Below the pieces are notes generated by a model. It was given only the letters and a program-made list of their open reading frames with translations. It did no database searches and was not told the origin of the DNA. This document shows, piece by piece, positions 23,616 to 51,713 of a stretch of 64,000 nt of DNA. This stretch comes from Streptomyces liliiviolaceus. GTDB lineage: Bacteria > Actinomycetota > Actinomycetes > Streptomycetales > Streptomycetaceae. Both the position numbers and the translations under genes were made by a program. The stretch is taken from positions 1,364,001 to 1,428,000 of the forward strand of contig NZ_JAGPYQ010000002.1 of the NCBI RefSeq assembly GCF_018070025.1, read 5' to 3'. Position 1 is the first letter of the stretch. Every line of letters begins with the position of its first letter.

Positions 23616-25502
23616 TCAGCGCTGGTCGATCGCGAGGCCGCGTGCCGCGAGTTCGGCCAGGACGGGATCTCGTCGGCCCCGCAGGATCTGTTCGTTCATC
23701 TGCAGTGACTTGTTGAGCCGTCGCAACGACTTCATCCTGAGCAGGGGGCCGAGCTCGGTGAGGGCGCGGTGGCCGCCGAAGAGGACTTCGCTGAGGTCGG
23801 GCAGGTCGGCCAGCGTACTGATGTCCGTCACTTCGTCCAGGTGGCCCATGCGCAGGGACTGGAGCGAGGTGAGACCGGCCAGGGGCGACAGGTCCTCCCA
23901 GTGCAGCTCGGAGAGGTAGAGCCGGGTCAGGGAGCGAAGGACGGGGAAGTCGGTCAGCTGCGGAATCCGGTCCACGCTCAGGACGCGCAGGCCGGGGCAC
24001 GTCTCCAGGACGTCGAGCGAGTCGAGGCCAGGGGTCCGGTGGAGTGTCAGCTCGGTGAGCGGGGTGCCGGTCAGTCCGCTGATGTCCTTGAGCGCACGGC
24101 AGTCCCGCACTCCGACCTCGGTGAGTGCGCCCAGTCCGTCCAGGCGGCCGAGGTCGGTGAGCGACTGGAGATCGCTGAACCCCAGTTCGCGCAGGGTCGG
24201 CAGATCACCCAGGTCGCCCGGGCTGCTCAGGCTGTCGGTACGGCTGACGGCCAGTTCTTCGAGGGCGCTGCGGGAGCCGAGACCGGTGAGGTCCAGCAGT
24301 CCGGAGCACCTGTCGAGGCCGAGGCCGCGCAGGCCGGGGAGGGAGGCGAACGGGGCGAGGTCCCGGATCAGGCCCAGCCCGTCCAGATGGAGCCGGAACG
24401 CACCGGCGAGGCCTGCCAGTTGACCGACGTCCGCCAGCGCGGGGCAGTTCTCGAAGGTGATCTTTTCCAGTGAGGGCAGGGTTCCGAGTCCCGCGACGGA
24501 GGCGAACCGTTCGCCGTCCGCGATCCGCAGCTCCGTCAGGTGCGTCAGTGCGGAGAGTCCGTGCAGGTCGAACAGGTCCGGACAGCCCTTGACCGCCAGC
24601 TTCTTCAGGCGGGGGTGCTGTCCGAGGCCGCGGAAGGACTGGAAACGGGGGCAGTCCTCGATGACCAGCTCGGAGAGGTCGGCTGCCGCGGCGATGCCGG
24701 TCAGGTCTCGAAGCTGCTTGCAGCTCTCCAGGCGCAGGGAGGTGAGTGCGGGCACGTTCGTCAGGCCGGTCAGGTCCCGCACCGCGGTCCAGCCGAGATC
24801 GAGGTGGGTGAGGCCGGTCAGGCCGGCGAGCTGCGCCGGGGATCTGAAGGACCGGCAGCCGCGCAGGTCGAGGTGCTCCAGCAGGGGGAAGGCCGCCGGG
24901 AAGTCGGTCACCGAGGTGACCCGGGTGATGCTCAGGTCGAGGTGGCGCAGTTGGCCGAGGGTCAGCAGCGGCTTGATGTCGGACACCGGACGGCAGCGGT
25001 GCAGGCTCAGCCGGGTGAGCCGGGTGAGACCGCTGAGGGGTGTCAGGTCCTCGATTCCCGCGCAGCCGTTCAGGTCGAGGTGGCGCAGGTCGGTGAGCGC
25101 GCCGACTTCCGTGAGGTCGGTGATCTCCTTGCAGCGGTCCACCGTCAGCGTGCGCAGCATGGTGAGGTGCCGCAGGCCCGACAGCGAGGTCACGCGCTTC
25201 AGGGTCAGCTCCGTACGGCCCTCCCGGCGGAAGGCAGGCACCAGCAGGGCCGCGGCGTAGCCGTCGGGATCGCCGGCCGTCGGCCACAGCCTCAGAAGTG
25301 TGTCCAGGGCGAGGTCCGCGACGGGCGCGAAACGGGCGGCCAGCTCCAGCGCGGCGCCGTCGTCGGTGACCACCACCAACTCGCGCACCGCCTTGCGGGC
25401 CTGGGCCTGACTGGCCGTGCCGAGCAGGACGGAATGGGCCACGACGGGATCGTCCGGGTGTGCGGGGTCGTCCGGGTGTCCGCGGCCGGTGGTCGAAGTC
25501 AT
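23616..25502 (-). CDS. Leucine-rich-repeat protein
   Basis: 628 residues from ATG 25502. The start is uncertain: GTG codons at 25544 and 25547 are also in frame, and no site is clearly favoured. A short N-terminal region (about 100 residues, alpha-helical) is followed by roughly twenty irregular leucine-rich repeats of 22-24 residues with the pattern L..L.L..C..L.DLTGL, and a short polar C-terminus. No signal peptide, membrane span or LPxTG motif, so cytoplasmic. The array resembles LRR sensor regions found with NACHT/STAND ATPases in actinomycetes, but no ATPase domain is present here. Likely a protein-protein interaction scaffold; the partner is unknown. Confidence 0.85.
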   Translation of the reverse strand: MTSTTGRGHPDDPAHPDDPVVAHSVLLGTASQAQARKAVRELVVVTDDGAALELAARFAPVADLALDTLLRLWPTAGDPDGYAAALLVPAFRREGRTELTLKRVTSLSGLRHLTMLRTLTVDRCKEITDLTEVGALTDLRHLDLNGCAGIEDLTPLSGLTRLTRLSLHRCRPVSDIKPLLTLGQLRHLDLSITRVTSVTDFPAAFPLLEHLDLRGCRSFRSPAQLAGLTGLTHLDLGWTAVRDLTGLTNVPALTSLRLESCKQLRDLTGIAAAADLSELVIEDCPRFQSFRGLGQHPRLKKLAVKGCPDLFDLHGLSALTHLTELRIADGERFASVAGLGTLPSLEKITFENCPALADVGQLAGLAGAFRLHLDGLGLIRDLAPFASLPGLRGLGLDRCSGLLDLTGLGSRSALEELAVSRTDSLSSPGDLGDLPTLRELGFSDLQSLTDLGRLDGLGALTEVGVRDCRALKDISGLTGTPLTELTLHRTPGLDSLDVLETCPGLRVLSVDRIPQLTDFPVLRSLTRLYLSELHWEDLSPLAGLTSLQSLRMGHLDEVTDISTLADLPDLSEVLFGGHRALTELGPLLRMKSLRRLNKSLQMNEQILRGRRDPVLAELAARGLAIDQR

Positions 25503-25640
25503 GGCCAGAACCCTACAACTCCCCTTCCAGCGGCCCGTGATCACCACTCACAGCTCGACGCCCAGCCCTTCGACGGCGACCCCGTCGGCCATGCCTCGGA
25601 CCGGCATGGCCGACAGTTCGTACGCGACTCGCACGCGACG

Positions 25641-36958: not shown

Positions 36959-37330
36959 ATGGCCGATGCGAGGGACGAGAGGCGACCGGCGGGCGAGCTC
37001 GAAGCCGCCGTCATGGGCGTGCTGTGGGCCGCCGGGACCCCGCTCACACCCGGCGGGGTGCAGAGCGGACTCGGTTCCGCCCTGGCCCGGACGACGGTGA
37101 CGACGACGTTGACGCGGTTGCACGAGAAGGGCGTCGTCAGCCGTGCACGACAGGGCCGCGGCTATGCCTACAGCCCCGTACAGGACGCACCCGGCCTGAC
37201 GGCGCGGCGCATGCACTCCGAACTCGCCAAGGACACCGACCGGCAGACGGTCCTCGCGCGGTTCGTCGCCCAGCTCGATCCCGGCGACGAGCAGCACCTG
37301 CGCCGGCTCCTGGAGGGCGGCGAGCGGTGA
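36959..37330 (+). CDS. blaI: BlaI/MecI/CopY-family repressor (copy 1)
   Basis: 123 residues from ATG 36959 (AGGA 8 bp upstream). Winged helix at the N-terminus (GELEAAVMGVLWAAGTPLTP; ARTTVTTTLTRLHEKGVV) and a helical dimerisation tail. Family members repress beta-lactamase, penicillin-binding or metal-homeostasis genes until cleaved by an M56 protease. It overlaps the M56 gene (GTGA), and its promoter carries two palindromic boxes. Paralogue at 52946-53317. Confidence 0.94.
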   Translation: MADARDERRPAGELEAAVMGVLWAAGTPLTPGGVQSGLGSALARTTVTTTLTRLHEKGVVSRARQGRGYAYSPVQDAPGLTARRMHSELAKDTDRQTVLARFVAQLDPGDEQHLRRLLEGGER

Positions 37331-38256
37331 CCGTCCTGCTGCTCGTACCGCTGGTCCTCCCCTTTCTCGCGCCGATGCCGGCCCGCGCAACCCTCAGTCG
37401 TCTCGCGCCCGCCACCGCGCTGTGGGTCCTCACCGCCTCGGCCCTGGCGCTGGCCGGAGCCTGCGTCGCCGCTCTCGGTTCCCTGGTCCTGATCGGACTG
37501 CTCAAGTTCCCGGTCTTCGCCACCCTCGGGGAACTCGTCCATCCCCTGCGAAGCCCCTCGGATCTGCTCGTCCTGCCCGCTGCCGCGGCGGCCACCGGAG
37601 TGCTCACCCTCAGCGCCTGGACCGTCGTGCGCGCCGTCTTCCGGCAGACCCGTGACTTCCGTACCGCCCGGCGACAGGCGGACAGCCGCCCCGCCGCCGG
37701 TGACCTGTGCGTCGTCGACTCGCCCCACCCGGACGCGTACGCCCTCCCCGGACGCCCCCACCGCATCGTCGTCACCACCGCGATGCTGCGCAGCCTGGGA
37801 CCTGCCGAGCGCGAAGCCCTGTTCGCCCACGAGCGTGCGCACAACCAGGCAGGCCACCACTACCATCTGGCCGCCGCCGAACTCGCCGCCCACTGCCATC
37901 CGGCCCTGCGCGCCGTACGCGACGCCATCCGGCTCGCCGCCGAGCGGGCCGCCGACGAGAGCGCCGCCACCGCCGTCGGCGACCGTCGTCTGGTGGCCAC
38001 CGCCATCGCCCGCGCCGCCCTCGCGGGCCACGACTCACACTCCGCCCGCCCAGGTTTCGCGCCTGCGGCGACGACCGGGCCGGTTCCGCGACGCGTCACC
38101 GCCCTCCTCGAACCCGTTGCGGTGCGCTCACGAGCCGCGCGATGGACCGCGTTCCTGCTCGTCGCGTGTACGGTCCTGTCCGTCGCCGCCGGGACGGTCG
38201 GTGTCGTCGACTTTCACCACGAGGTCGAGGTCGCCCAGGGCGAGGAGAGCCGGTGA
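37327..38256 (+). CDS. M56-family (BlaR1-like) membrane metallopeptidase (copy 1)
   Basis: 309 residues from GTG 37327. Two N-terminal membrane spans, another at about residue 80, the zinc motif HERAH (HExxH) in EALFAHERAHNQAGHH, and a C-terminal membrane span. No penicillin-binding sensor domain, as usual for actinobacterial M56 proteins paired with BlaI. It probably cleaves BlaI or another membrane-proximal target in response to envelope or metal signals. Translationally coupled to blaI-1. Confidence 0.92.
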   Translation: MTVLLLVPLVLPFLAPMPARATLSRLAPATALWVLTASALALAGACVAALGSLVLIGLLKFPVFATLGELVHPLRSPSDLLVLPAAAAATGVLTLSAWTVVRAVFRQTRDFRTARRQADSRPAAGDLCVVDSPHPDAYALPGRPHRIVVTTAMLRSLGPAEREALFAHERAHNQAGHHYHLAAAELAAHCHPALRAVRDAIRLAAERAADESAATAVGDRRLVATAIARAALAGHDSHSARPGFAPAATTGPVPRRVTALLEPVAVRSRAARWTAFLLVACTVLSVAAGTVGVVDFHHEVEVAQGEESR

Positions 38257-39258: not shown

Positions 39259-40722
39259 TCAGACAGCCGCCGTGAGAGGCCGTCCGGCCAGGAGAGCCGC
39301 GCTGTAGCGGCGCAGCAGGAGGACGGCGGTGGCGGCGAGGCCGGTCAGCAGGCCCAGCCAGATCCCGAGGGTGTCCAGGTGGAGGGGAAAGGCGAGGAGC
39401 CAGGCGGCGGGCAGTCCGACGGCCCAGTAGCCGATGAGGGTGATCCGGAAGCCGCTCCGGGTGTCGTCGAGTCCGCGCAGGAGTCCGACCCCGATGTTCT
39501 GGGCGCAGTCGAAGAACTGCAGGAAGGCGGTGACGATCAGGAGGTGGGTGGCGATGGTGAGGGCCTGCCCGGAGCCGGTGTCGAGGAACGGTGCCAGGAC
39601 GAGGTGCGGCACCGTGAGATACAGGGCGCCGACGCAGGTCATCACGGCGCCGGCGCAGGCGAGTGCGGTGTTCTTGATGCGTCGCGCGCCGTCGTGGTGA
39701 CCGAGGGCCAGTTCCCGGCTGACGTTGATGGAGGCCGCGTGGGACAGACCGACGGCTACCTGGAAGACGATGTAGACGAGTTGGTTGACGGCGGTGTGCG
39801 CGGCCAGCGCCTCGGGGCCGAAGGAACCCGCCATGAGGGCGGTGACGGAGAAGAAGCCGGCTTCGGAGCCGTAGGTGGCGGCGATCGGCACACCGAGACC
39901 GAGGATCCGTTGGAGTACGGCCAGGTCGGTGCGGGTGATGTCGAGGCTGAGGAGCGGGGCGAGTTCGGTGTCCTTCTTCGCGGCGAGGTACAAGGCGGCG
40001 AAGGACAGCAGGTAGACGCTCGACGTGGCGATTCCGACGCCGGTCAGTCCGAGGCGGGGAAGGCCGAAGGTGCCGTGGATGAGGATCCAGTTCAGGGCCG
40101 CGTTCACGCCGATGGACACGAGAGTGATCCGGAGCAGGGCCTGCGGGCGTCGCATGCCGACGGTGAACTGGCGTACGGCCTGGAACCACAGGCAGGGCAG
40201 CAGGCCGGGGGCGAGTGCGTGGAGCATCTTCCGGGTGAGGGCGACGACCTCGGGGTCCTGGCCGAGCAAAGTCAGTGCCTGTCCGATGAGGATCATCAGC
40301 AGCGCGCCGGTGATTCCGGCGAGGGTGGCGACGGTCAGGCTCGCGCGCACGACGGCCCGTACCTCGTCGTGCGCCGACTCCTTCGCGCCGTCCCTGCCGC
40401 CTCTGCCGTCCCTGCCGTCCTTGCCGTTCCTGCCGTCCCCGCCTTCTGTTCCGTCCGTGTCCGCCCCACCGGCTGTCTGTTCCGCTCGGGCCGCGGCGGC
40501 TGCGACCTGGTTGCCGACCGAGGTAATGAGGCCGACGCCCATCGTGCGGATCTGGTTGAAGATCACGATGGCCAGGCCGCCAGCCGCGAGTTCGGTGGTG
40601 CCGAGCAGTCCCAGCATCACCGTGTCGGTGGTGGTGAGTGCGACCTGGGCGAGTTGGGTGAGGACGAGCGGGACGGCGAGCACGCCGAGGGCGCGGCTGT
40701 CGCGGAGGAGAGTGGTCAGCAT
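39259..40722 (-). CDS. MATE-family efflux transporter with a Gly/Asp-rich loop insert
   Basis: 487 residues from ATG 40722; the start overlaps the stop of the SbnA-like gene (ATGCTGA), with GGTGGA as ribosome-binding site. Twelve membrane helices in the two-bundle MATE arrangement. Between helices 2 and 3 there is an unusual polar insert of about 30 residues with the collagen-like pattern GRDGRGGRDG. The last gene of the diaminopropionate operon, so it probably exports the product of that pathway. MATE exporters use H+ or Na+ gradients. Confidence 0.92.
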   Translation of the reverse strand: MLTTLLRDSRALGVLAVPLVLTQLAQVALTTTDTVMLGLLGTTELAAGGLAIVIFNQIRTMGVGLITSVGNQVAAAAARAEQTAGGADTDGTEGGDGRNGKDGRDGRGGRDGAKESAHDEVRAVVRASLTVATLAGITGALLMILIGQALTLLGQDPEVVALTRKMLHALAPGLLPCLWFQAVRQFTVGMRRPQALLRITLVSIGVNAALNWILIHGTFGLPRLGLTGVGIATSSVYLLSFAALYLAAKKDTELAPLLSLDITRTDLAVLQRILGLGVPIAATYGSEAGFFSVTALMAGSFGPEALAAHTAVNQLVYIVFQVAVGLSHAASINVSRELALGHHDGARRIKNTALACAGAVMTCVGALYLTVPHLVLAPFLDTGSGQALTIATHLLIVTAFLQFFDCAQNIGVGLLRGLDDTRSGFRITLIGYWAVGLPAAWLLAFPLHLDTLGIWLGLLTGLAATAVLLLRRYSAALLAGRPLTAAV

Positions 40723-41756
40723 GTGGTCCACCGGTTCCTGCGGAGTTTGGTGAGGAGTTCGTCGATCTCCCGCTCGGCGGCGGGGCTCAGCAGGTCGCGT
40801 TCGCTCATCCAGTCGTCATTGAAGACGGTGTCCATGTACTTTTCCCCGCCGTCGTTGATCAGGGCGACCATGGTGGTGCCCGGCGGCAGGTCGGCGAGAC
40901 GGGTCAGTGCCTCGTGGACGACGCCGCCGGCCGAACCTCCGATCAGCAGGCCGGTACGGGCGACGGCCCGGCAGGTCGCGAAGGCCTCGATGTCGCCGAC
41001 CTTGACTCCTTCGTCGATCAGGTCGAAGTCGACCAGGGCGCCGATCTCGGCGCCTTCGGGGGTGCCGGTGCCGGACTGGTGGTAGTCGTGGGCGGGGCCG
41101 CCGAACGCGATCGATCCCTCGGGTTCCACGCCGATGACGGTGAATCCGGGTATCAGCCTGCTCAGCTCCCGGCCGGTGCCGCACAGCGCGCCGCCGGTGC
41201 CGACGGCGCCGATCAGTATGTCGATCCTGCCGTCCAGGGCCTCGTTGAGTTCGTGGGCCACGGGGTAGTACCCGACTCCGTTGGCGGGGTTGTTGTGCTG
41301 CTCGGTGAAGACGGTGTTGTCCTGGCCGCGCGCCATGTTCTCGGCGAGCTCTTCCCTGGCGGCGGTGGCCAGTTCCTCGGTTCCGTCGTCGACGACATAG
41401 ACGAGTTCGGTGCCCAGGGCCCGCATGCCGCGGAGTTTGTCGGGGGCCGCGTGGTGGTCGACCACGGCGGTGAAGGTGTAGCCGCGTTCTGCGGCGATCA
41501 CCGAGAGGCCCAGGCCGGTGTTGCCGGAGGTGGACTCGATGATCCGGCCTCCGGCGCGCAGTTCGCCCGCGGCCTCGGCGGCGTCGACCATGGCGCGCGC
41601 CATCCGGATCTTCGCGGTTCCGGTGGGGTTGAACATCTCCAGTTTCAGCAGCAGGCGGCTGCCGGTGTCGGTGGCGGCGAGCTCCAACAGGGGTGTGTGG
41701 CCGATGAGTTCGGACAGGCGGGAGACCACGGCGGGGCGCTGAAGAGCTCCGGGCAT
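40716..41756 (-). CDS. sbnA: SbnA-like PLP enzyme (2,3-diaminopropionate pathway)
   Basis: 346 residues. A fold-type II PLP enzyme of the cysteine synthase superfamily. The PLP lysine is in NPTGTAKIRM, the carboxylate loop is ESTSGNTGLGL, and the phosphate-binding loop is GAVGTGGALCG. In staphyloferrin B synthesis SbnA joins O-phosphoserine and glutamate into an aminocarboxyethyl-glutamate adduct. The SbnB-like gene in the same operon makes this reaction far more likely than ordinary cysteine synthesis. It follows the Y4yA-type gene by 55 bp and overlaps the MATE gene. Confidence 0.9.
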   Translation of the reverse strand: MPGALQRPAVVSRLSELIGHTPLLELAATDTGSRLLLKLEMFNPTGTAKIRMARAMVDAAEAAGELRAGGRIIESTSGNTGLGLSVIAAERGYTFTAVVDHHAAPDKLRGMRALGTELVYVVDDGTEELATAAREELAENMARGQDNTVFTEQHNNPANGVGYYPVAHELNEALDGRIDILIGAVGTGGALCGTGRELSRLIPGFTVIGVEPEGSIAFGGPAHDYHQSGTGTPEGAEIGALVDFDLIDEGVKVGDIEAFATCRAVARTGLLIGGSAGGVVHEALTRLADLPPGTTMVALINDGGEKYMDTVFNDDWMSERDLLSPAAEREIDELLTKLRRNRWTTC

Positions 41757-41811
41757 CGAATGCTCCTGTGAAGGGGACGGCGGGCGGAGGGCCAGGTCGT
41801 GCGGCGCGCTG

Positions 41812-43233
41812 CTACGAGGTGAAGTGGCGGTCCAGACGCCAGCGCGGCCGTGGGCGGTCGGTCCAGTCGATGACGACCTTCGGTGGCAGGGGCAGGTCGT
41901 GGAAGGAGGATTCGTTGGAGTCCATCTGGTAGCCGGCCGTGTTCGGGTACACCAGGAGGTCCCCGGCCCGTGGACGACGGGGAAAGGCGATCTTGCGCCA
42001 GGTGAGCATGTCCGATTCCAGGCAGGTGGCGGCGCCGACGCTCGCGGGGAACGCCCCGCCCGGTGCCTCGCACTCCCCCGGTTCGTGCAGGTCCCCCGAG
42101 TTCTCGAAGTCCATCGACGGCTGCGGGATCAACCGGGGGTCGGGGAGGTACTCGCTGCCGAACCACTGCTCGGACAGGCTCAGGCTCGTGCCGTCGACGG
42201 TCAGCAGCCGGTAGCCGTCCCGTTCCTTGACGCCCTGGATGGTGAACACGGTGGCTCCGGCCCGGTCGAGCAGGGCGCGGCCCGGCTCAAGGAGCAGTTG
42301 CACCTGGGCATTCCTGAGGACCTGCGCCAGAGTGGTGTCGCTGTTCTCCGGCCGGGTCGCCAGGAGTGCGGTCAGCGCGCCGGCCCCGGCGAGGGGCGAG
42401 TGGTAGGGGTAGAAGTCGCCGCTTCGGAACGTCTTTTCGGCGTGGTAGTCGGCGGGTCGCTGTGCTTCGAGGAACGCCCGCCAGCTGTCGGCATCCGTGT
42501 AACTGACGGGCAGGCCACCGCCGATGCTGATGCGGTGGGCTTGAAGTCCCTTGGCGCGGGCCGTGCGGCACAGGTCGATCAGCCGGGCGGCGAGGCCGGC
42601 GCGGGGCCCCAACGCGTAGCCGGACAGATGGAAGCTGAAGCCTTCCATCCGCAGCGCGTCCCCAGCTGTCACGCAGCGGTCCATCGCCGTGGCCAGTTCC
42701 TCCTCGGCCAGGCCGAAGCGGCTGTCCGGCTGGAGCGGGGGCAGGACCCGCAGGAGCACACGGGCCGGGCGGGTCCGTCCGCCGAACGCGCGGGTGATCA
42801 CGGCGTCCAGTTCGTCCAGTGCGTCGACCGCGATCAGCGCGCCGTGCTGCACGGCGAGCCGCAGCAGGTGCGGGTCCTTCGCGGGCCCGGTCACCATGAG
42901 GTCCTCCCCGCGCACGCCGTGACCAAGTGCCTCGCGCAGTTCCCCGACCGAGGCCACGTCCACACCGGCGCCCAGCGCCGCGGCGCGTTCGGCGAAGACG
43001 GCGGCCTTGTTGGCCTTCTTCGCGAAGTACACGAAGCCGTCCACGCCGGCCGTCGCGAGCGCTTCGTACAGGGAGCGCAGGTTGGTGTCGAAGGCGTCCG
43101 GCAGCAGGAAGTGGAAGGGGCCGCCGAAGGCGTGGGCGAGTTCGGGCAGGAGCCCGCCGGCCAGCAGCGCCTCGGTGGCGGGATCGGGCAATGCCGGGAG
43201 AACCGGATGTCCGGTGACGGTGGTCACTGCCAC
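41812..43233 (-). CDS. Y4yA-type PLP-dependent decarboxylase (fold III, Orn/DAP decarboxylase superfamily)
   Basis: 473 residues from GTG 43233 (GAGG 7 bp upstream; a GTG at 43227 would give a 4-bp GTGA overlap instead). The alanine racemase-like barrel carries the PLP lysine in VYFAKKANKAAVF. Glycine-rich ISIGGGLPVSY, EPGRALLDRAG and a C-terminal GAATCLESD with the active-site Cys-x-x-x-Asp complete the pattern of type III decarboxylases. In staphyloferrin B the analogous SbnH decarboxylates a diaminopropionate-citrate intermediate. Here the substrate may be the aminocarboxyethyl-glutamate adduct or a derivative. Overlaps the SbnB-like gene by 10 bp. Confidence 0.88.
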   Translation of the reverse strand: MAVTTVTGHPVLPALPDPATEALLAGGLLPELAHAFGGPFHFLLPDAFDTNLRSLYEALATAGVDGFVYFAKKANKAAVFAERAAALGAGVDVASVGELREALGHGVRGEDLMVTGPAKDPHLLRLAVQHGALIAVDALDELDAVITRAFGGRTRPARVLLRVLPPLQPDSRFGLAEEELATAMDRCVTAGDALRMEGFSFHLSGYALGPRAGLAARLIDLCRTARAKGLQAHRISIGGGLPVSYTDADSWRAFLEAQRPADYHAEKTFRSGDFYPYHSPLAGAGALTALLATRPENSDTTLAQVLRNAQVQLLLEPGRALLDRAGATVFTIQGVKERDGYRLLTVDGTSLSLSEQWFGSEYLPDPRLIPQPSMDFENSGDLHEPGECEAPGGAFPASVGAATCLESDMLTWRKIAFPRRPRAGDLLVYPNTAGYQMDSNESSFHDLPLPPKVVIDWTDRPRPRWRLDRHFTS

Positions 43234-44249
43234 AACGGCACCTCGACGCCCAGGCCCTGCGCGATGGCCAGTTGGGAGAAGCGATGGCCGAGTGCGATGT
43301 CGGTGACGACGAGACCGCTGTTGTAGGCGAAGATCCGCTCGGTGTCGCCGGTACGGCCGGCTGCGGTCCCTGCGAGCACGGGCGGGAACTCGGCGTCGAC
43401 GGAGGGGAGTTCGCCCTCGGCGTCGGCCATGTCGGTGCCCGTGACGTTCATCTGTGCCTCGCTGGTGGCTACGACACGGTCCGCCCGGTGCAGCGTGGAG
43501 GGCGCGAGTCCGTGTCCGACGAGGACGGACAGCGTGCCCGGCTTGAGCCAGTCGGCCTCGACGGCGGCCGGGGTGTGCGAGCCGGCCGTGGCGAGGATGA
43601 TGTCGGCGTCCGCGGCGGCGTTCCGCAGATCGGTGACGATCTCCACGTCCCGGTCGGGAAAGTGTGCGCGCAGTTGCTCGCGGACGGCGGCGATGCCTTC
43701 GGGGTGTGTGCCGAACAGCATCAGCCGGTCCAGGTCGGGGCGCGTGGTGAGCAGGAACGGCAGCGCGAGGCGCCCTTGGGTTCCCGTGCCGATGACCAGT
43801 GCGGAGCGTGCACCGGACACCGCGCATTCCCGGGCGAGCAGAGCGGAGACGGCCGGTGTGCGCAGTGAGCCGATGCGGGAGCAGTCCATCATGGCCACCG
43901 GCAGCCCGGTGATGTCGTCGTAAAGCGTCAGTGCCGTGTAGTAGTGCTGCTGCGTACGGCCCTTGTCCAGGCCGTGCTTGTACGAGGTCTTGATCGCGAC
44001 GACGTCGCGGGAGCCGTCCCGGCCCAGCATGGCGTAGGAGACGGAGTGCCCGTCCGGCGGCTTCACGGTCAGCTTGCGGGGGTTGTCGGAGAGGCCGTCG
44101 TGGAGTGTGCGGTAGGCACCCTCCACCGTGGACACCACGTCGGCCAGGGAGATCTCGATCCCGGCCAGGTCGCTGGTGGACAGGATGCGCAGGTGTGTCG
44201 CGTCGCCGGACCTGGGGATGTCGGTGGGGGCGGCCGGGGCGTGTGTCAT
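43224..44249 (-). CDS. sbnB: SbnB-like dehydrogenase (ornithine cyclodeaminase superfamily)
   Basis: 341 residues from ATG 44249. Ornithine cyclodeaminase/mu-crystallin fold with the nucleotide-binding loop VIGTGTQGRLALPFL and the preceding Lys in VAIKTSYKHG. SbnB oxidatively splits the aminocarboxyethyl-glutamate made by SbnA into 2,3-diaminopropionate and 2-oxoglutarate using NAD+. The gene order dioxygenase, SbnB, decarboxylase, SbnA, exporter is compact and all on one strand. The 2-oxoglutarate released could feed the oxygenase upstream. Confidence 0.9.
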   Translation of the reverse strand: MTHAPAAPTDIPRSGDATHLRILSTSDLAGIEISLADVVSTVEGAYRTLHDGLSDNPRKLTVKPPDGHSVSYAMLGRDGSRDVVAIKTSYKHGLDKGRTQQHYYTALTLYDDITGLPVAMMDCSRIGSLRTPAVSALLARECAVSGARSALVIGTGTQGRLALPFLLTTRPDLDRLMLFGTHPEGIAAVREQLRAHFPDRDVEIVTDLRNAAADADIILATAGSHTPAAVEADWLKPGTLSVLVGHGLAPSTLHRADRVVATSEAQMNVTGTDMADAEGELPSVDAEFPPVLAGTAAGRTGDTERIFAYNSGLVVTDIALGHRFSQLAIAQGLGVEVPLWQ

Positions 44250-44278
44250 GGGGGGTTCCTCCGTTGCGAGACGGGAGT

Positions 44279-45271
44279 TCAGCTCGGGTGCGCTTCGAGG
44301 GCGGACTGGCCGTAGCCGTGCTCGTTCGCTTCGGAGGCCGGGCGGGTGCGCCTGCCGGGCACGCGGACGGAGGCCCGCTTGAGCCAGCGGTCGGTGCCGT
44401 CGTAACGGGCCTTGAAGGGCACCCTGCCGTGCACGACGAGGTCGTTGTCGACGACCAGGACGTCGCCGGGCTCCAGGCTCACGGCGACGGAGACCCTGGA
44501 CAGCTCTTCGGCCAGGCGGTCGTACGCGGCGCGGTGTTCCTCGGTCGCCTCGCCGAGTGGGGTGTAGGCGGGGTCGAACCGCAGGGTCAGCCCGTCGGGA
44601 GAACCCCACAGCGTGGGTACGGGCGGTGGCGTTCCGGCGTAGGCCTGGGCCTCGGCGTAGGCGTCGTCGGGGAGGATCGGGAGAGCCGGACGACTCAGCA
44701 ACTCCACATCAGCCGACGGTAGTTCGACCTGCCGGACGGAGGCGGCGGTGGTGGCGACGGCGTCATGGTTGCGCATGCAGCCGAGGATCAGCAGGTGGGC
44801 ACGGCCGGGGTGGAAGGCGTCCTCGGTGTGCGGGCTGAGCAGCACGGTACTGCTGGCTCCGGTCTGTTCCTCCTCGTGACCGGGAGACGGGACGATGTTG
44901 TGCACGAACCGGCCGTCCTGCTGGCCTTCCCAGGCGATGGGGGTGCCCATCACGGTGGCGAGCAGGAGCAGGGCCACGTCGTGGACGGCCCCGGAGTGGC
45001 CCGCGGTCGACCAGTGGTCCGGCGTGGGGCCGATGGTCTCGTCGTCGACGGGGATGCCGCGCACGACGTACAGGCCGGCGGAGGTGTCCACGGGGCGGCA
45101 TACGTGCCGGATCCCGGCGCTCAGAGTGGCGGCGGTGCCCGGCAGTTGACGTATGAGTGCGGAGGACCGGGGGTCCCCGCCGAAGGCTGAGAGCAGTTCT
45201 TGTGCCGCTTCGGTCAGTTTGGTTACGGCGTGCGGGTCGAGCTGGCGCACAGGCGTGACTGCCGTCGGCAT
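44279..45271 (-). CDS. TauD/TfdA-family Fe(II)/2-oxoglutarate oxygenase (clavaminate synthase-like)
   Basis: 330 residues from ATG 45271, where similarity begins. The iron facial triad is visible: HTE in SPHTEDAFH (about residue 160) and the distal His in LVVHGRVPF (about 285), with the 2-oxoglutarate-binding Arg in WLKRASVRV. The region resembles amino-acid beta-hydroxylases of natural-product pathways (arginine, asparagine, enduracididine types). First gene of the iron-box operon. It probably hydroxylates a free amino acid to make a metal-binding hydroxy-acid unit. Confidence 0.88.
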   Translation of the reverse strand: MPTAVTPVRQLDPHAVTKLTEAAQELLSAFGGDPRSSALIRQLPGTAATLSAGIRHVCRPVDTSAGLYVVRGIPVDDETIGPTPDHWSTAGHSGAVHDVALLLLATVMGTPIAWEGQQDGRFVHNIVPSPGHEEEQTGASSTVLLSPHTEDAFHPGRAHLLILGCMRNHDAVATTAASVRQVELPSADVELLSRPALPILPDDAYAEAQAYAGTPPPVPTLWGSPDGLTLRFDPAYTPLGEATEEHRAAYDRLAEELSRVSVAVSLEPGDVLVVDNDLVVHGRVPFKARYDGTDRWLKRASVRVPGRRTRPASEANEHGYGQSALEAHPS

Positions 45272-45424
45272 GGTCAACCATCCGTTCGTGGGGCGCGTGC
45301 GGGGGCGCGGGGTGATGGCGGGAAAAGGGCCGGACGCGGGCGTGCGGAGCGGATCAGCTGCGCGGATCGCACGGGACACATGGGTCGGCGGAGTTGCGAT
45401 CCGTCGACGCATCCGGTCGGCGGC

Positions 45425-45443
45425 TCAGGTAAGCCACACCTAA
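45425..45443. promoter_or_regulatory. Degenerate iron-box-like site for the minus-strand operon
   Basis: TCAGGTAAGCCACACCTAA matches the DmdR/IdeR consensus TTAGGTTAGGCTAACCTAA at 14 of 19 positions. It overlaps a 13-bp palindrome ACCTAAGTTAGGT (45438-45450) made of two half-sites. It lies about 150 bp before the oxygenase gene. Confidence 0.55.
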
Positions 45444-45470
45444 GTTAGGTGGATCCGGCGCGGGAGGCTG

Positions 45471-45486
45471 TACTCCACTTGGAGTA
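45471..45486. promoter_or_regulatory. Second, non-iron-box palindrome between the divergent operons
   Basis: TACTCCA-CT-TGGAGTA, perfect 7-bp arms, 19 bp from the nearer iron box. It resembles a MerR-type or other dimeric operator, suggesting a second input besides iron. No regulator gene is adjacent. Confidence 0.5.
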
Positions 45487-45504
45487 TTGCGACCGGTCGA
45501 TTTT

Positions 45505-45523
45505 TTAGGATAGGCAAACCTAA
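45505..45523 (+). promoter_or_regulatory. Iron box (DmdR/IdeR site) upstream of the ABC importer operon
   Basis: TTAGGATAGGCAAACCTAA matches the consensus at 17 of 19 positions and ends 33 bp before the GTG start of the substrate-binding protein, so it would overlap the promoter. This indicates repression when iron is plentiful. Confidence 0.85.
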
Positions 45524-45556
45524 GTAATTAACGCTGCTTGGGAAGCCGAGGAATAC

Positions 45557-47113
45557 GTGGACCTGACGAGACGTCAACTGCTGTGGGCCGGTGCCGCTTT
45601 GACCGCGGCGACCGTACTGACCGCGTGCGGCAGCGGTGGTGACGCCGAGCCGAACGGATCCGCCGACGACACCTCCGCCAAGCCCCGCAAGGGCGGCACA
45701 CTGCGGGTCGGAGCCCTCGGCCGCGCGAGTGCCGTCACCCGTGACCCGCACGGCACCCAGTCCAACGAGAGCGACTACCTGATCCTCAGCCTCGTACACG
45801 ACGCGCTGACCGTCCCGGGAGCCAAGCCGAACACCGCTCCCCGGCTCGCCGCGAGCTGGGAGCCGTCGGCCGATCTCAAGACCTGGAAGTTCAAGCTCGC
45901 CAAGGGTGCGAAGTTCCACGACGGCTCTCCTGTGACCGCGAAGGACGTCGTCTTCTCGCTCAAGCGACTCCGCGCCACCCCCGCCGGCGCCTCCCGCCTG
46001 CCCGGCATCCAGGCGAAGAACATCACCGCCCAGGGCACCGACACGGTCGTCCTGGTCTCCGACTACGCCAACGCCGAACTCCCGCTCCTCACCCGCCTGA
46101 CCACGTTCGTCGTCCCCGACGGCACCAGCGACGAGGACATCGCGAAGGCTCCCGGCACCGGGCCGTTCAAGCTCGACTGGTTCCGCGGCGGCAACGCCCG
46201 GCTGGTGCGCAACGACTCCTGGCACGGCGGGACGGTGTACCTGGACGCCATCGAGGTGAAGATCTTCGAGAGCCCGCAGGCCATGGCCAACGCGCTGCTC
46301 GCCGGGCAGATCGACCTCGCCTCCAACGCCGGTGCCATCGCGGCCCGTACGGCCAAGACGCGTAAGGACATCCAGACCGTCCGCCGCCCCAACGACATGG
46401 CGATGCCGATCGTCATGCGCACTGCCGACGGTCCCTTCGCCGACACCAAGGTGCGTGAGGCCCTGCGCCTGGCCGTGGACCGTGAGGCCATGGTCAAGCA
46501 GGTCCTGTCCGGCTACGGCACGGTCGCCAACGACATCCTCGGCACCGGTGACCCCGCCTACGCCAAGAGCATCACCCAGCGCACCCGCGACCTCGCCAAG
46601 GCCAGACAACTGTTGAAGGAGGCGGGGTTCGACACGTCCAGGACGTACGAGCTCATGACCACCGAGGACATCTCGGGGCTGGCCGAATCGGCCACCCTCT
46701 TCGCCACCCAGGTGCGCGAGGCGGGCGTGAAGGTCAAGGTCGTCAAGCAGGAGTCCGCGGTCTTCTGGGACAAGACCTGGCTGAAGGGCGACCTGTACAC
46801 CAGCTACTGGGGCACCAACGACTCGGTGGTCTTCTTCGCCAGCAAGACCATGGTCTCCGACAGCGGGCAGAACGAGGCGGGCTGGCAGGACACCGCCTTC
46901 GACACGGCGTACGAGAAGGCCATCGGCACCTCGGACGACGCCCGGCGCACCCAACTGCTGCGCGAGATGCAGCAGATCGAGTACGACAGCTCCGGCTATC
47001 TGCTGTGGGGCATGGCCGACGGCGTCGACCTCGCCGCCGCGAAGGTGCGCGGACTTCCGACGCTGCCCGGTTACGGCCGTGTCCAGCTCGAAACGGCATG
47101 GCTGACCAGTTGA
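45557..47113 (+). CDS. ABC importer substrate-binding lipoprotein (SBP_bac_5: peptide/nickel/opine type)
   Basis: 518 residues from GTG 45557 (GAGGA upstream). The leader carries a Tat-like TRRQLLW and a lipobox LTAC-G, so it is an exported lipoprotein anchored at Cys about residue 23. The mature SBP family 5 fold shows KGGTLRVG and the conserved GAKFHDGSPVTAKDVVFSL. Family members bind oligopeptides, nickel chelates or opine metallophores (CntA). Preceded by an iron box, and first gene of a four-gene importer operon, which points to uptake of a metal chelate rather than nutrient peptides. Confidence 0.93.
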   Translation: MDLTRRQLLWAGAALTAATVLTACGSGGDAEPNGSADDTSAKPRKGGTLRVGALGRASAVTRDPHGTQSNESDYLILSLVHDALTVPGAKPNTAPRLAASWEPSADLKTWKFKLAKGAKFHDGSPVTAKDVVFSLKRLRATPAGASRLPGIQAKNITAQGTDTVVLVSDYANAELPLLTRLTTFVVPDGTSDEDIAKAPGTGPFKLDWFRGGNARLVRNDSWHGGTVYLDAIEVKIFESPQAMANALLAGQIDLASNAGAIAARTAKTRKDIQTVRRPNDMAMPIVMRTADGPFADTKVREALRLAVDREAMVKQVLSGYGTVANDILGTGDPAYAKSITQRTRDLAKARQLLKEAGFDTSRTYELMTTEDISGLAESATLFATQVREAGVKVKVVKQESAVFWDKTWLKGDLYTSYWGTNDSVVFFASKTMVSDSGQNEAGWQDTAFDTAYEKAIGTSDDARRTQLLREMQQIEYDSSGYLLWGMADGVDLAAAKVRGLPTLPGYGRVQLETAWLTS

Positions 47114-48123
47114 TCCCCGACCTCGAAGAGCCGACGAGCCTTTCGGCGGTACCTGCCGAAGAGCGGTCGGCCCGATCGCCCGTGGCACGGATCGCGGCCC
47201 GTGCCGGCCTCGTCGTGCTCAAACGATCCGTGCTCCTCGCGACGCTTCTCGCAGTGGTCTTCATCGGCGTCGAGCTGCTGCCCGGGGACGCCGCGAGCGC
47301 CACCTCCGAACGCGGGGAGAGCACCGCGGACGTGGACCGCCGACGGGAGACGCTAGGTCTCGACCGACCCGTCCTGGAACGGTTCTGGGACTGGATGTCC
47401 GGCCTGCCCACCGGCGATCTGGGCACCTCCGCACAGGGTGAGCACGTCACCGGCCTGCTCACCAGCGCGTTCCCCAACACCCTGGTGCTGAGCGGATCGG
47501 CGCTGCTGCTGACGGCCGCGCTCTCGCTGTCGTTGGCGTCCGGTGCGGCACTGCGGCCCGGCGGACGCCTCGACCGGATCGTCACCGGCATGTCGACCGC
47601 CGTGTTCGCCGTCCCGGAGTTCGTCGTCGCGGTCGTGCTCGTCCTGGTGCTGTCGCTGTGGACCGGATGGCTGCCCGCCGTCACCCTCACCGACGGCGAC
47701 GGCTCCCCCGCCTCCTGGACCATGCTCGTCCTGCCCGCGCTGGCCCTGACCGTTCCGCAGACGGGCTGGAACACGCGCATCGCCCGTGCGGCCCTCGCCG
47801 ACGAGGCCCGCGCCCCCTACGTCGAAGCCGCGGTCCTCGACGGTCTGTCGCCGCGCCGGGTGGTGCTGCTCCACGTCCTGCCGGGGGCCCTGCCCACCAT
47901 CGCCACCGGGCTCGCCACGTCGTCCGGAGTGCTCCTCGGCGGAGCGGTCGCCGTGGAGACCATCTTCAACCACCCCGGAATCGGCGCCGTGCTGGCCTCC
48001 GCGATCGCCGACCGCGACACCCCGGTGATCGCCGGTGTGACCGTGCTGGCCGGTGCGGCCATCAGCGTCGTGCTGCTGATGGCGGACCTGCTCCGCGACC
48101 TGCTGACGGTGGGGCAGCGATGA
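47098..48123 (+). CDS. ABC importer permease (DppB/NikB-like)
   Basis: 341 residues from ATG 47098, overlapping the lipoprotein gene by 16 bp. An N-terminal cytoplasmic stretch of about 35 residues, a first membrane helix, a periplasmic-side loop with the typical GLDRPVLERFWDWMSGLPTGDLG, then five helices with the EAA loop (YVEAAVLDGLSPRRVVLLHV) that contacts the ATPase. Forms the channel with the next permease. Confidence 0.93.
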   Translation: MADQLIPDLEEPTSLSAVPAEERSARSPVARIAARAGLVVLKRSVLLATLLAVVFIGVELLPGDAASATSERGESTADVDRRRETLGLDRPVLERFWDWMSGLPTGDLGTSAQGEHVTGLLTSAFPNTLVLSGSALLLTAALSLSLASGAALRPGGRLDRIVTGMSTAVFAVPEFVVAVVLVLVLSLWTGWLPAVTLTDGDGSPASWTMLVLPALALTVPQTGWNTRIARAALADEARAPYVEAAVLDGLSPRRVVLLHVLPGALPTIATGLATSSGVLLGGAVAVETIFNHPGIGAVLASAIADRDTPVIAGVTVLAGAAISVVLLMADLLRDLLTVGQR

Positions 48124-48181
48124 CCGTACGAGGCCCTGCGGCCCCCTTGTCGCCGACCCGCCCCACTGATGGAGGCCGCGG

Positions 48182-49045
48182 ATGAAGCCGCTGACAGGCC
48201 GTCGCGGCGGGAGTTCCCCCAAGACCCAGCGGCGTTGGTCCCCGACGGCCGTCCTGCTCCGGGTCCTGCCCGCCGCCGCACTCGTGGCCCTGGCCCTCGC
48301 CGGACCGTGGATCACTCCCCACGCGGTGGACGAACCCGTCACCGCTCCCTTCGCCGAGGCCGGCGGCGGAGCCCTCCTCGGCGGCGACCAGCTCGGCCGC
48401 GACGTCCTCAGCAGAGTGCTGGCGGGCGGTCGCGAACTCGTGCTGTCGGCGCTGCTGATCGCCGCGGTGGTCACCGCGGCCGCCGCCGTCATCGGGGCGA
48501 TCGGCGCCCTGCGGCCGACCGTCGGCCGGGTCGTCGAGCGCGCCGCGGACGTGCTGATCCTCCTCCCCGCCGTACTGGGCATCATGCTGGTCGCCCTGTC
48601 GTGGCCCGGGGGCGGCCGCCTCGCCGTGGCCGCCGCCGCCATCGTCCTGGGACTGCCGTACGCCGTCCGCCTCGTGACCCATGCCGCCGCCCCCGTCGCC
48701 GCGTCCGGCTACGTCGAAGCGGCCACCGCCGGCGGCGAACGCCTGTGGTTCCTCGTGGTGCGCGACGTCCTGCCCAACCTGCGAGCCACCCTGCTCGCCC
48801 TGCTCGGCCTGCGGTTCGTCGAGGCGGTCTACGTCGTCTCCATGGCCGGCTTCCTGCAGGTCGGCCCCCAACCCCCCGCCGCCGACTGGGCCTTGATGAT
48901 CCGGGAGAACTCCCCGGGGATCCTGCTGAACCCCTGGGCCGTCCTCGCCCCCAGCATCGCGGTCGGCCTGCTGGCCCTGAGCGTCAACCTCGCGGCGGCC
49001 GCCCTGGTCCCGCAGACCGGCCGGAAGGCGGTAACCCTGCTGTGA
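48182..49045 (+). CDS. ABC importer permease (DppC/NikC-like)
   Basis: 287 residues from ATG 48182 with GGAGG upstream. Six membrane helices; LGGDQLGRDVLSRVLAGGR is the DppC-type signature after helix 1, and the EAA loop YVEAATAGGERLWFLVV is present. The stop overlaps the ATPase start (GTGA). Pairs with the upstream permease. Confidence 0.93.
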   Translation: MKPLTGRRGGSSPKTQRRWSPTAVLLRVLPAAALVALALAGPWITPHAVDEPVTAPFAEAGGGALLGGDQLGRDVLSRVLAGGRELVLSALLIAAVVTAAAAVIGAIGALRPTVGRVVERAADVLILLPAVLGIMLVALSWPGGGRLAVAAAAIVLGLPYAVRLVTHAAAPVAASGYVEAATAGGERLWFLVVRDVLPNLRATLLALLGLRFVEAVYVVSMAGFLQVGPQPPAADWALMIRENSPGILLNPWAVLAPSIAVGLLALSVNLAAAALVPQTGRKAVTLL

Positions 49046-50667
49046 GCCACACCCCCGACCGGCGCACGAACACAGTCGGCCGCTCCCCCTCGCCGGTGGC
49101 GGAAGTGAGCACGCTCGACATCACCACACCGGGCGGCCGCCCCCTCCTCAAGAACGTGTCACTCACCCTTCGTCCTGGCCGCCTCGTCGCCGTCACCGGC
49201 CCTTCTGGAGCCGGAAAGACAACACTGCTGCGGGCACTGCTCGGGCACCTGCCGCCCGGTACGGCACACTCGGCCGGCCAGGTGCGCGTACTCGGTCACG
49301 ACATGTTCGAACTGGACGAGCGCGCACGCCGTGAGATCCGCAGAACCAGGATCGGGTACGTCGGACAGGACCCCGCGTCGGCACTCAACCCCCGGCTGCG
49401 CGTCCGCACACTCCTTCGCGAGCTGAACACCGACCGCTCACCCGCGGCCGTACGCGATCTGCTGGACGCGGTCCGCCTGCCGGCCGACCACCGGTTCACC
49501 TCTCGCCGGCCCGGGGAGTTGTCAGGAGGCCAACTGCGTCGTGTCGCCCTGGCCCGCGTCCTGGCCAAACGCCCGACCCTGTTGCTCCTGGACGAACCCA
49601 CAGCCGGACTCGACCCGTTGCTGCGCCACGAGATATCCGAACTGCTCCGCAGCCTGACGCACGAACACGATCTCGGCGTCGCCTTCTCCTCCCACGACCC
49701 GGATGTCGTCGAGCGACTCGCCGACGACGTCGTACGACTGGCTCCGGACGGGGCCGTGCCCGAAGCCCCGGAGGAAAGAGGTGAGCGCCCCTCCGGGCGC
49801 ATCGCGGTGTCCCGGCGGCCGCCAGCGGTATCGGCCACCGGCGCGGAGACTGCCGGTGTGCCCCTCCTCGACGTCCATGACCTGAGCGTCGCACTCGGCC
49901 GCCGGAGCACCGGGCATCTCGTGCTGGACGGCGTTCGACTCACCGTGGCGAAGGGCTCGGTGGCTGCCGTCGTCGGCGCTTCGGGCTCCGGCAAGACGAC
50001 ACTGGCCCGTGCACTCGTCGGTCTCCACAAGAGCCGGTCCGGCACCGTACGGCTCGACGGAACAGCCCTGCCAGCCACCGTGGGGCGCCGCAGTCGGGAC
50101 CAGCGCCGCCGCATTCAGCTGATCACCCAGAACCCCCTCGGGGCGCTCAACCCCAGCCGGACCGTCGGCTCCTCGGTGGCCAGGCCCCTGCGGATCCACC
50201 ACCGCACTCCCCCAGGGATCACCGGCCGTGCCGTCGAGGAACTGCTGCGCCAGGTCGGGCTGCCGGCCGACTTCGCAGGCCGGTATCCGCACGAACTGTC
50301 GGGCGGCCAGCGTCAACGGGTCGCGATCGCCCGGGCTCTCGCGGCCGAGCCCGAGATCCTGGTGTGCGACGAGATCACGTCCGCCCTCGACCGGCCCACC
50401 GGTCACGCGGTCATGGACCTGCTTCACCGGCTACGGCAGGACCGCTCCATGACCCTCGTCATCATCAGTCATGATGTGCCGCTGATCCAGGACCGGTCGG
50501 AGACGATCACGGTTCTCGCCGACGGGCGGGTAGTGGAGTCCGGTCGTACGGCGGACGTGTTCGCGGATCCGCGGCACGCGGCCACGGCGGAACTGCTGAG
50601 CCGTCCTCCGGCATCCGTACCGACGTCAGGCACGAGGGAGCATCACCGAACCCTCCCGTACCCGTAG
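49042..50667 (+). CDS. ABC importer ATPase with two fused nucleotide-binding domains (DppD-DppF fusion)
   Basis: 541 residues from GTG 49042. Domain 1: Walker A GPSGAGKTT, signature LSGGQLRRVALARVL, Walker B LLLLDEP. Domain 2: Walker A GASGSGKTT, signature LSGGQRQRVAIARAL, and a Walker B of the form ILVCDEITSALD. One polypeptide supplies both ATPase halves normally made by separate dppD and dppF genes. This completes the importer, so the system needs no further subunit. Last gene of the operon. Confidence 0.94.
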   Translation: MSHTPDRRTNTVGRSPSPVAEVSTLDITTPGGRPLLKNVSLTLRPGRLVAVTGPSGAGKTTLLRALLGHLPPGTAHSAGQVRVLGHDMFELDERARREIRRTRIGYVGQDPASALNPRLRVRTLLRELNTDRSPAAVRDLLDAVRLPADHRFTSRRPGELSGGQLRRVALARVLAKRPTLLLLDEPTAGLDPLLRHEISELLRSLTHEHDLGVAFSSHDPDVVERLADDVVRLAPDGAVPEAPEERGERPSGRIAVSRRPPAVSATGAETAGVPLLDVHDLSVALGRRSTGHLVLDGVRLTVAKGSVAAVVGASGSGKTTLARALVGLHKSRSGTVRLDGTALPATVGRRSRDQRRRIQLITQNPLGALNPSRTVGSSVARPLRIHHRTPPGITGRAVEELLRQVGLPADFAGRYPHELSGGQRQRVAIARALAAEPEILVCDEITSALDRPTGHAVMDLLHRLRQDRSMTLVIISHDVPLIQDRSETITVLADGRVVESGRTADVFADPRHAATAELLSRPPASVPTSGTREHHRTLPYP

Positions 50668-50713: not shown

Positions 50714-51649
50714 TCAGCGAGCGACCACACCCTGTGCCTCGCCCACCTCGTGGTGCAGATGCAGCACCGCAGACGCGGTCACACCCACGGAGACAAGAAC
50801 GGCGAGAACCACGAGAAGGGCCAGACACCGCGGCGCCCTGCCGGGCGCGGCAGATGGCTTGAGGAGAGTGGTGACGCGTTGCGAGACGGGACCCGTTGCC
50901 GCTCCGAGGGTCAGATAGGGGCGCGTGGTGGGGCCCGCGTCATGGCTGGCCAACGCGGCTCGCGCCACCGCGACAGCGACCAGCTTCCGGTCCCCCACGG
51001 CTCGGGCCGCGGCCTCATCGGCCGCGAGCTCCGCAGCGAGACGGATCTCCTCGCGCACCCTGCGCAGGGCGGGATGACAGTGTGCCGCAGCCTCGGCGGC
51101 CGTCAGGAAGTAGTGGTGCCGCTGGGCGTTGTGAGCACGCTCATGGGCGAACAGGGCTTCCCGCTCCGCCGCTCCGAGGGTGCGCAGCATGCCCGCTGTC
51201 ACGACGATGCGGTTCTGACGGCCCGGCAGCGCGTATGCGTCGGGCCGGGGCGAATCGACGACGCACAGATCTCCTACCACGGGGAGCTGCGCCACCTGTC
51301 GCTGTGCTGCCCGAAGCGTGCGGCTGTGCCGCACGACGGAATGTCCGAACCGCAGTCCGCCGAGAACCAGGGCCAGACCGGCCAGGACCGCCATCCCACC
51401 GACCACAGGAACAGAGGGCGTGCACAGATGGTGGACGAAATGGCTGAGCTCCGCGACGGCCGGTACGAGGAACAGGCCGGTAAGGATCAGCGAACCGAGA
51501 CAGACGAGGCACGCCGCGGCCGAGACGAGCGTCGCCGACGTGAGGATCCACAGCGCCGCGGTCGGTCGTACCCACACCAGCACACGGCTCGTCACCAGGC
51601 ACAGCAGGAACGGCAGCACCAGCGGCACGACGAACAGCGGAGTCAGCAT
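50714..51649 (-). CDS. M56-family (BlaR1-like) membrane metallopeptidase (copy 2)
   Basis: 311 residues from ATG 51649 (AAGGACG upstream; an in-frame TTG precedes it directly). Same layout as the protein at 37327: N-terminal membrane helices, a third near residue 90, HERAH zinc motif in FAHERAHNAQRHH, and a C-terminal helix. Long identical stretches such as GDLCVVDSP and PDAYALPGR show recent common origin. Its promoter has two BlaI-type boxes, but the nearest blaI lies 1.3 kb away on the other strand. Confidence 0.92.
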   Translation of the reverse strand: MLTPLFVVPLVLPFLLCLVTSRVLVWVRPTAALWILTSATLVSAAACLVCLGSLILTGLFLVPAVAELSHFVHHLCTPSVPVVGGMAVLAGLALVLGGLRFGHSVVRHSRTLRAAQRQVAQLPVVGDLCVVDSPRPDAYALPGRQNRIVVTAGMLRTLGAAEREALFAHERAHNAQRHHYFLTAAEAAAHCHPALRRVREEIRLAAELAADEAAARAVGDRKLVAVAVARAALASHDAGPTTRPYLTLGAATGPVSQRVTTLLKPSAAPGRAPRCLALLVVLAVLVSVGVTASAVLHLHHEVGEAQGVVAR

Positions 51650-51713
51650 CAAGCGTCCTTCAGCACGACGGGACCTGCGGGCAGGCCGTCTACACGTCCA
51701 CCCTCAGCTTCGA

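Follow-up and report, generated by a model that had tools for sequence, protein, structure and literature searches.

The locus comprises nine genes in two divergent operons and occupies 11.4 kb (39259–50667) of the window, the whole 64-kb stretch of DNA analysed here. Genes were assigned from the ORF list, Pfam and NCBIfam. The leftward operon, on the minus strand, is transcribed in the order Fe/2OG oxygenase, SbnB-like dehydrogenase, PLP decarboxylase, SbnA-like enzyme and MATE exporter. Its first gene (44279–45271) encodes a Fe(II)/2-oxoglutarate oxygenase (PF02668, TauD-type) that appears to be of the arginine β-hydroxylase type, a relative of VioC, OrfP and GntD. The second encodes an NAD(P)-dependent dehydrogenase of the ornithine cyclodeaminase (OCD) family (43224–44249; PF02423, E 8.8e-30), the third a decarboxylase of the LysA/ornithine type (41812–43233, start approximate; PF02784, Orn_Arg_deC_N, E 3.7e-21) and the fourth a PLP enzyme with the cysteine-synthase fold (40716–41756; PF00291, with TIGR03945 below cut-off). 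The MATE-family exporter (39259–40731) has 490 residues when read from a GTG codon, with an in-frame ATG at 40722; it matches PF01554 (E 2.4e-36) and reaches 200.9 bits with TIGR00797 matE, above the cut-off of 147.4. The rightward operon, on the plus strand, encodes an SBP_bac_5 substrate-binding lipoprotein (45557–47113; PF00496, E 1.6e-78) whose translation reads as having a lipobox-like start, LTAC. It is followed by two ABC importer permeases, both PF00528 (BPD_transp_1), at 47098–48123 (start approximate; E 1.8e-33, tested from 47110) and 48182–49045 (E 1e-16), and by a fused double ATPase of 541 residues (49042–50667) in which PF00005 (ABC_tran) matches two stretches. A preliminary description of this DNA had given the same nine genes in two operons, including the exporter, the oxygenase and the complete importer, and the domain searches bear it out on each of these points. 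Its 'Y4yA-type' label for the decarboxylase was returned by neither Pfam nor NCBIfam.

The two operons share a gap of 285 bp (45272–45556), with the hydroxylase start set at 45271 because relatives align from that position. Only two places in the 64-kb window match the iron box at 14/19 or better, and both lie in this gap. The site on the importer side (45505–45523, plus strand) matches 17/19 positions of the presumed DmdR consensus. The site on the hydroxylase side (45425–45443) overlaps a palindrome, CACCTAA-G-TTAGGTG, found by reading at 45437–45451. The gap, the 17/19 box and the palindrome are as previously described. The second site had been scored 14/19, which holds on the plus strand, but it matches 15/19 on the minus strand. 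No iron-box match with three or fewer mismatches was obtained in 100 dinucleotide shuffles.

Two related M48/M56-type metallopeptidase genes flank the cluster in opposite orientation, at 37339–38256 (plus strand) and 50714–51652 (minus strand). The left one comes after a small putative BlaI-like regulator at 36959, labelled by reading, and S. graminilatus (L001) lacks a counterpart of the right one at the corresponding position. Near the cluster, the segment 53921–56580 (minus strand) encodes a UPF0014 membrane protein and an imelysin (M75) protein with a cupredoxin-like domain, the latter presumably EfeO-like. Farther away in the window, at 23616–25547 (minus strand), lies a 643-residue protein with leucine-rich repeats, a kind of protein uncommon in actinomycetes.

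The same gene set was looked for in other genomes by scanning a species-level genome collection with the hydroxylase, which gave 50 loci. All nine genes are matched in 33 of the 50, a share biased towards hydroxylase-bearing loci because the loci were found through that gene. Some single matches in these 33 are incomplete, for example those to the ATPase in L025, at a contig end, and to the decarboxylase in L031; L005 and L017 come from one strain. Six loci are cut by contig ends, two lack the importer wholly or nearly, and nine hold only a distant relative of the hydroxylase (36–45% identity). Both importer-poor loci keep the biosynthetic operon: in S. chattanoogensis (L040) an importer match is absent and the hydroxylase match falls in two pieces in different frames, and in S. 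lavendulae (L041) all that is matched of the importer is residues 1–72 of its binding protein. In 40 of the 41 cluster loci, the stretch of about 420 bp upstream of the hydroxylase holds an iron box of at least 15/19, compared with 0 of 820 mononucleotide shuffles (20 per locus). Of the four best candidate sites in the S. chattanoogensis locus, none reaches 13/19.

The SBP_bac_5 protein and both permeases hit NCBIfam families of nickel and oligopeptide transporters, in every case under cut-off, and two of the 41 cluster loci (L040 and L041) do without the importer. One could picture an operon for peptide or nickel uptake that merely neighbours an amino-acid pathway. We regard this as scarcely plausible. 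The operons share one gap with two iron-box-like sites, and the nine genes stay together in the 33 complete loci, the others being cut by contig ends (six), importer-poor (two) or represented only by a distant hydroxylase (nine).

Of 199 genomes sampled from the genus, 23, the present one included, have an SbnB-like match with an E-value of 1e-60 or lower; two of the 23 are distant, at 44% and 49% identity. Three SbnB-like regions from this sample contain all nine genes (L064), four of them (L062) and only the SbnB-like gene (L063). L062 (2194–11400), also from Streptomyces, is a more remote relative of the cluster: its four are SbnA-, SbnB-, decarboxylase- and MATE-like genes at 42–59% identity, with an aminotransferase between the SbnA-like and MATE-like genes and an importer of the Peripla_BP_2/FecCD type. 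This region has no hydroxylase match; the contig stops some 1.5 kb past the decarboxylase, so a missing gene could lie outside. No iron box of 14/19 occurs in its 12.9 kb. It may represent another, different aminopolycarboxylate metallophore cluster.

Ethylenediaminesuccinic acid hydroxyarginine (EDHA) is an aminopolycarboxylate siderophore, the original paper on which is said to be Spohn et al. 2018. Two of the complete loci belong to strains connected with it. In S. scabiei, one report ties EDHA to an 11-kb cluster, scab_5231 to scab_5311, which antiSMASH missed in that study (PMC8914351). Another takes Streptomyces sp. MA5143a as its reference for the EDHA genes AesA–AesD (PMC10702961). A third lists EDHA as MIBiG BGC0002567 and counts 1,450 windows in 24 genera (PMC11888242); a review (PMC9694258) yielded nothing on EDHA. 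We equate L013, from S. scabiei 87-22, with scab_5231–5311 on the basis of its nine genes, its length of 11 kb and its estimated position near 0.59 Mb, and L035 probably corresponds to the MA5143a reference cluster, judging by strain and gene content. All nine proteins are present in the same order in both, with 59–84% identity in S. scabiei 87-22 and 55–84% in MA5143a. The lipoprotein is 84% identical to each counterpart and the MATE exporter 67%. In both strains the top-scoring iron box reaches no more than 15/19.

A synthetase was sought in the whole genome with IucA/IucC and condensation domains. There are 7 IucA/IucC and 60 condensation-domain matches, all outside the window, and none of either kind in the window stretch (C2:1364001-1428000), in agreement with the earlier statement that the locus has no NRPS or NIS synthetase. 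These matches outside the window would favour a pathway that made free 2,3-diaminopropionate, as for staphyloferrin B or viomycin, and fed it to a synthetase elsewhere in the genome. SbnA and SbnB are also the top-scoring NCBIfam families of the two proteins, and the preliminary description had called the pathway diaminopropionate-type. The superfamilies hold (PALP and OCD), but both proteins fall far under the curated cut-offs: 225.9 bits against 349.95 for SbnA (TIGR03945) and 103.5 bits against 326.9 for SbnB (TIGR03944), so the names stand as 'like' only. The genome contains a true SbnB on another contig, at C1:7287890, which scores 404.1 bits and lies beside an SbnA-like gene. In 33 of the 50 loci the cluster is accompanied by an exporter and an importer of its own. 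Because of the low scores, the true SbnB elsewhere and an oxygenase of the arginine β-hydroxylase type, the diaminopropionate-type assignment is probably wrong in detail, and a supply of free diaminopropionate to a remote synthetase is most improbable. A route through an ethylenediamine bridge between succinate and hydroxyarginine is the likely one.

The motif NPTGTAK, with K49, is present in the SbnA-like protein of 40 of 40 loci covering it; this protein is 76% identical to its counterpart in S. scabiei and 74% in MA5143a. The nearest solved chains of the SbnB-like dehydrogenase are 6t3e and 4m54, of which we take 4m54 to be SbnB. The decarboxylase scores 108.9 bits with TIGR01048 lysA, under the cut-off of 297.9, and keeps A-K-K-A-N-K in 40 of 40 loci covering the motif.

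The oxygenase matches 17 solved sequences, of which 8, including the best two, were named arginine hydroxylases by their depositors. All eight are among the best 11 matches. The other three of these 11 are 6daw, deposited as 'non-heme iron hydroxylase', and CmnC twice; we assume that they too are arginine hydroxylases. Asparagine, clavaminate and lysine enzymes rank after these 11. The best NCBIfam models are GntD (263.5 bits) and VioC (223.4 bits), and both equivalog cut-offs, 345 and 418.6 respectively, are missed. Every one of the 41 cluster loci has the presumed metal ligands H148, E150 and H281. The protein resembles arginine β-hydroxylases and as such would fit the hydroxyarginine half of EDHA. 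The missed cut-offs, with a substrate assignment drawn from homology, and the four-gene region L062, which has an aminotransferase and no hydroxylase match and by its existence makes the cluster family seem to vary, speak for a different aminopolycarboxylate of the EDHA family, either EDDS-like or built on another hydroxylated amino acid. The hydroxylase is, however, 75% identical to that of MA5143a and 77% to that of S. scabiei, with its presumed ligands invariant and arginine hydroxylases, eight by name and three by our assumption, filling the best 11 solved matches. A different family member is therefore highly unlikely. Put in terms of this strain, there is a slim chance that it makes a variant with a hydroxylated arm or an acid arm unlike that of EDHA; if so, the published cluster type would cover a small family of chelators. 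EDHA itself is the predicted product here, by homology.

The gene content and gene order, the homology to published loci and the conservation of the iron box established here suggest how such a product could be made and used. Every enzymatic and transport step below is predicted, and the order of steps is our own proposal. At low iron, a DmdR-type repressor would leave the boxes in the common gap and both operons would be switched on. The VioC-like oxygenase would hydroxylate arginine and supply the hydroxyarginine of EDHA. The SbnA-like enzyme would couple activated serine to an amino-acid amine, and the PLP decarboxylase would then remove the serine-derived carboxylate, leaving the ethylenediamine bridge. 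The SbnB-like dehydrogenase may form the second C–N bond by reductive amination of a keto acid, for example oxaloacetate, to give the succinate arm. The MATE protein would export EDHA and the SBP_bac_5 ABC transporter would re-import the metal complex. EDHA is called iron-responsive in one paper (PMC10702961), and another reports that in Nocardia mangyaensis DmdR1 controls a cluster for an aminopolycarboxylate metallophore that includes a MATE gene (PMC10920908).

Several known systems share parts of this arrangement. The staphylopine Cnt system is an importer for a synthetase-free metallophore, and its SBP_bac_5-type importer is similar in kind to the one described here. The window protein falls short of the staphylopine type, scoring 85.6 bits against a CntA cut-off of 800. 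The SbnA and SbnB enzymes of staphyloferrin B biosynthesis belong to the same superfamilies as the window proteins, which stay under both curated cut-offs, and no NIS synthetase match accompanies the latter in the window. The EDDS cluster of Amycolatopsis japonicum, reportedly the aes genes under zinc control, also yields an ethylenediamine-bridged aminopolycarboxylate with SbnA/SbnB-like enzymes. It differs in that it is not known to have an arginine hydroxylase and reportedly responds to zinc rather than iron.

The EDHA cluster of S. scabiei 87-22 and MA5143a agrees with the present locus in all nine genes, their order, the divergent layout and the iron boxes in the gap. The proteins are 55–84% identical, and nucleotide matches end at the cluster borders, within the roughly 4-kb flanks compared. 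We are highly confident that the locus is an orthologue of this published cluster, a judgement drawn from sequence comparison. The general idea of the preliminary description fits the EDHA cluster, which encodes a synthetase-free system for a hydroxylated and decarboxylated amino-acid chelator, probably under iron control, together with an exporter and an importer. It is no new putative system, because S. scabiei and MA5143a carry the same nine genes in a locus that has been published; the observation itself is real, and the system is already known. The locus is hence assigned to a published siderophore type, to which it adds one more member. Beyond this, the comparison favours hydroxyarginine joined through an ethylenediamine bridge over free diaminopropionate, and shows an iron box in 40 of 41 relatives.
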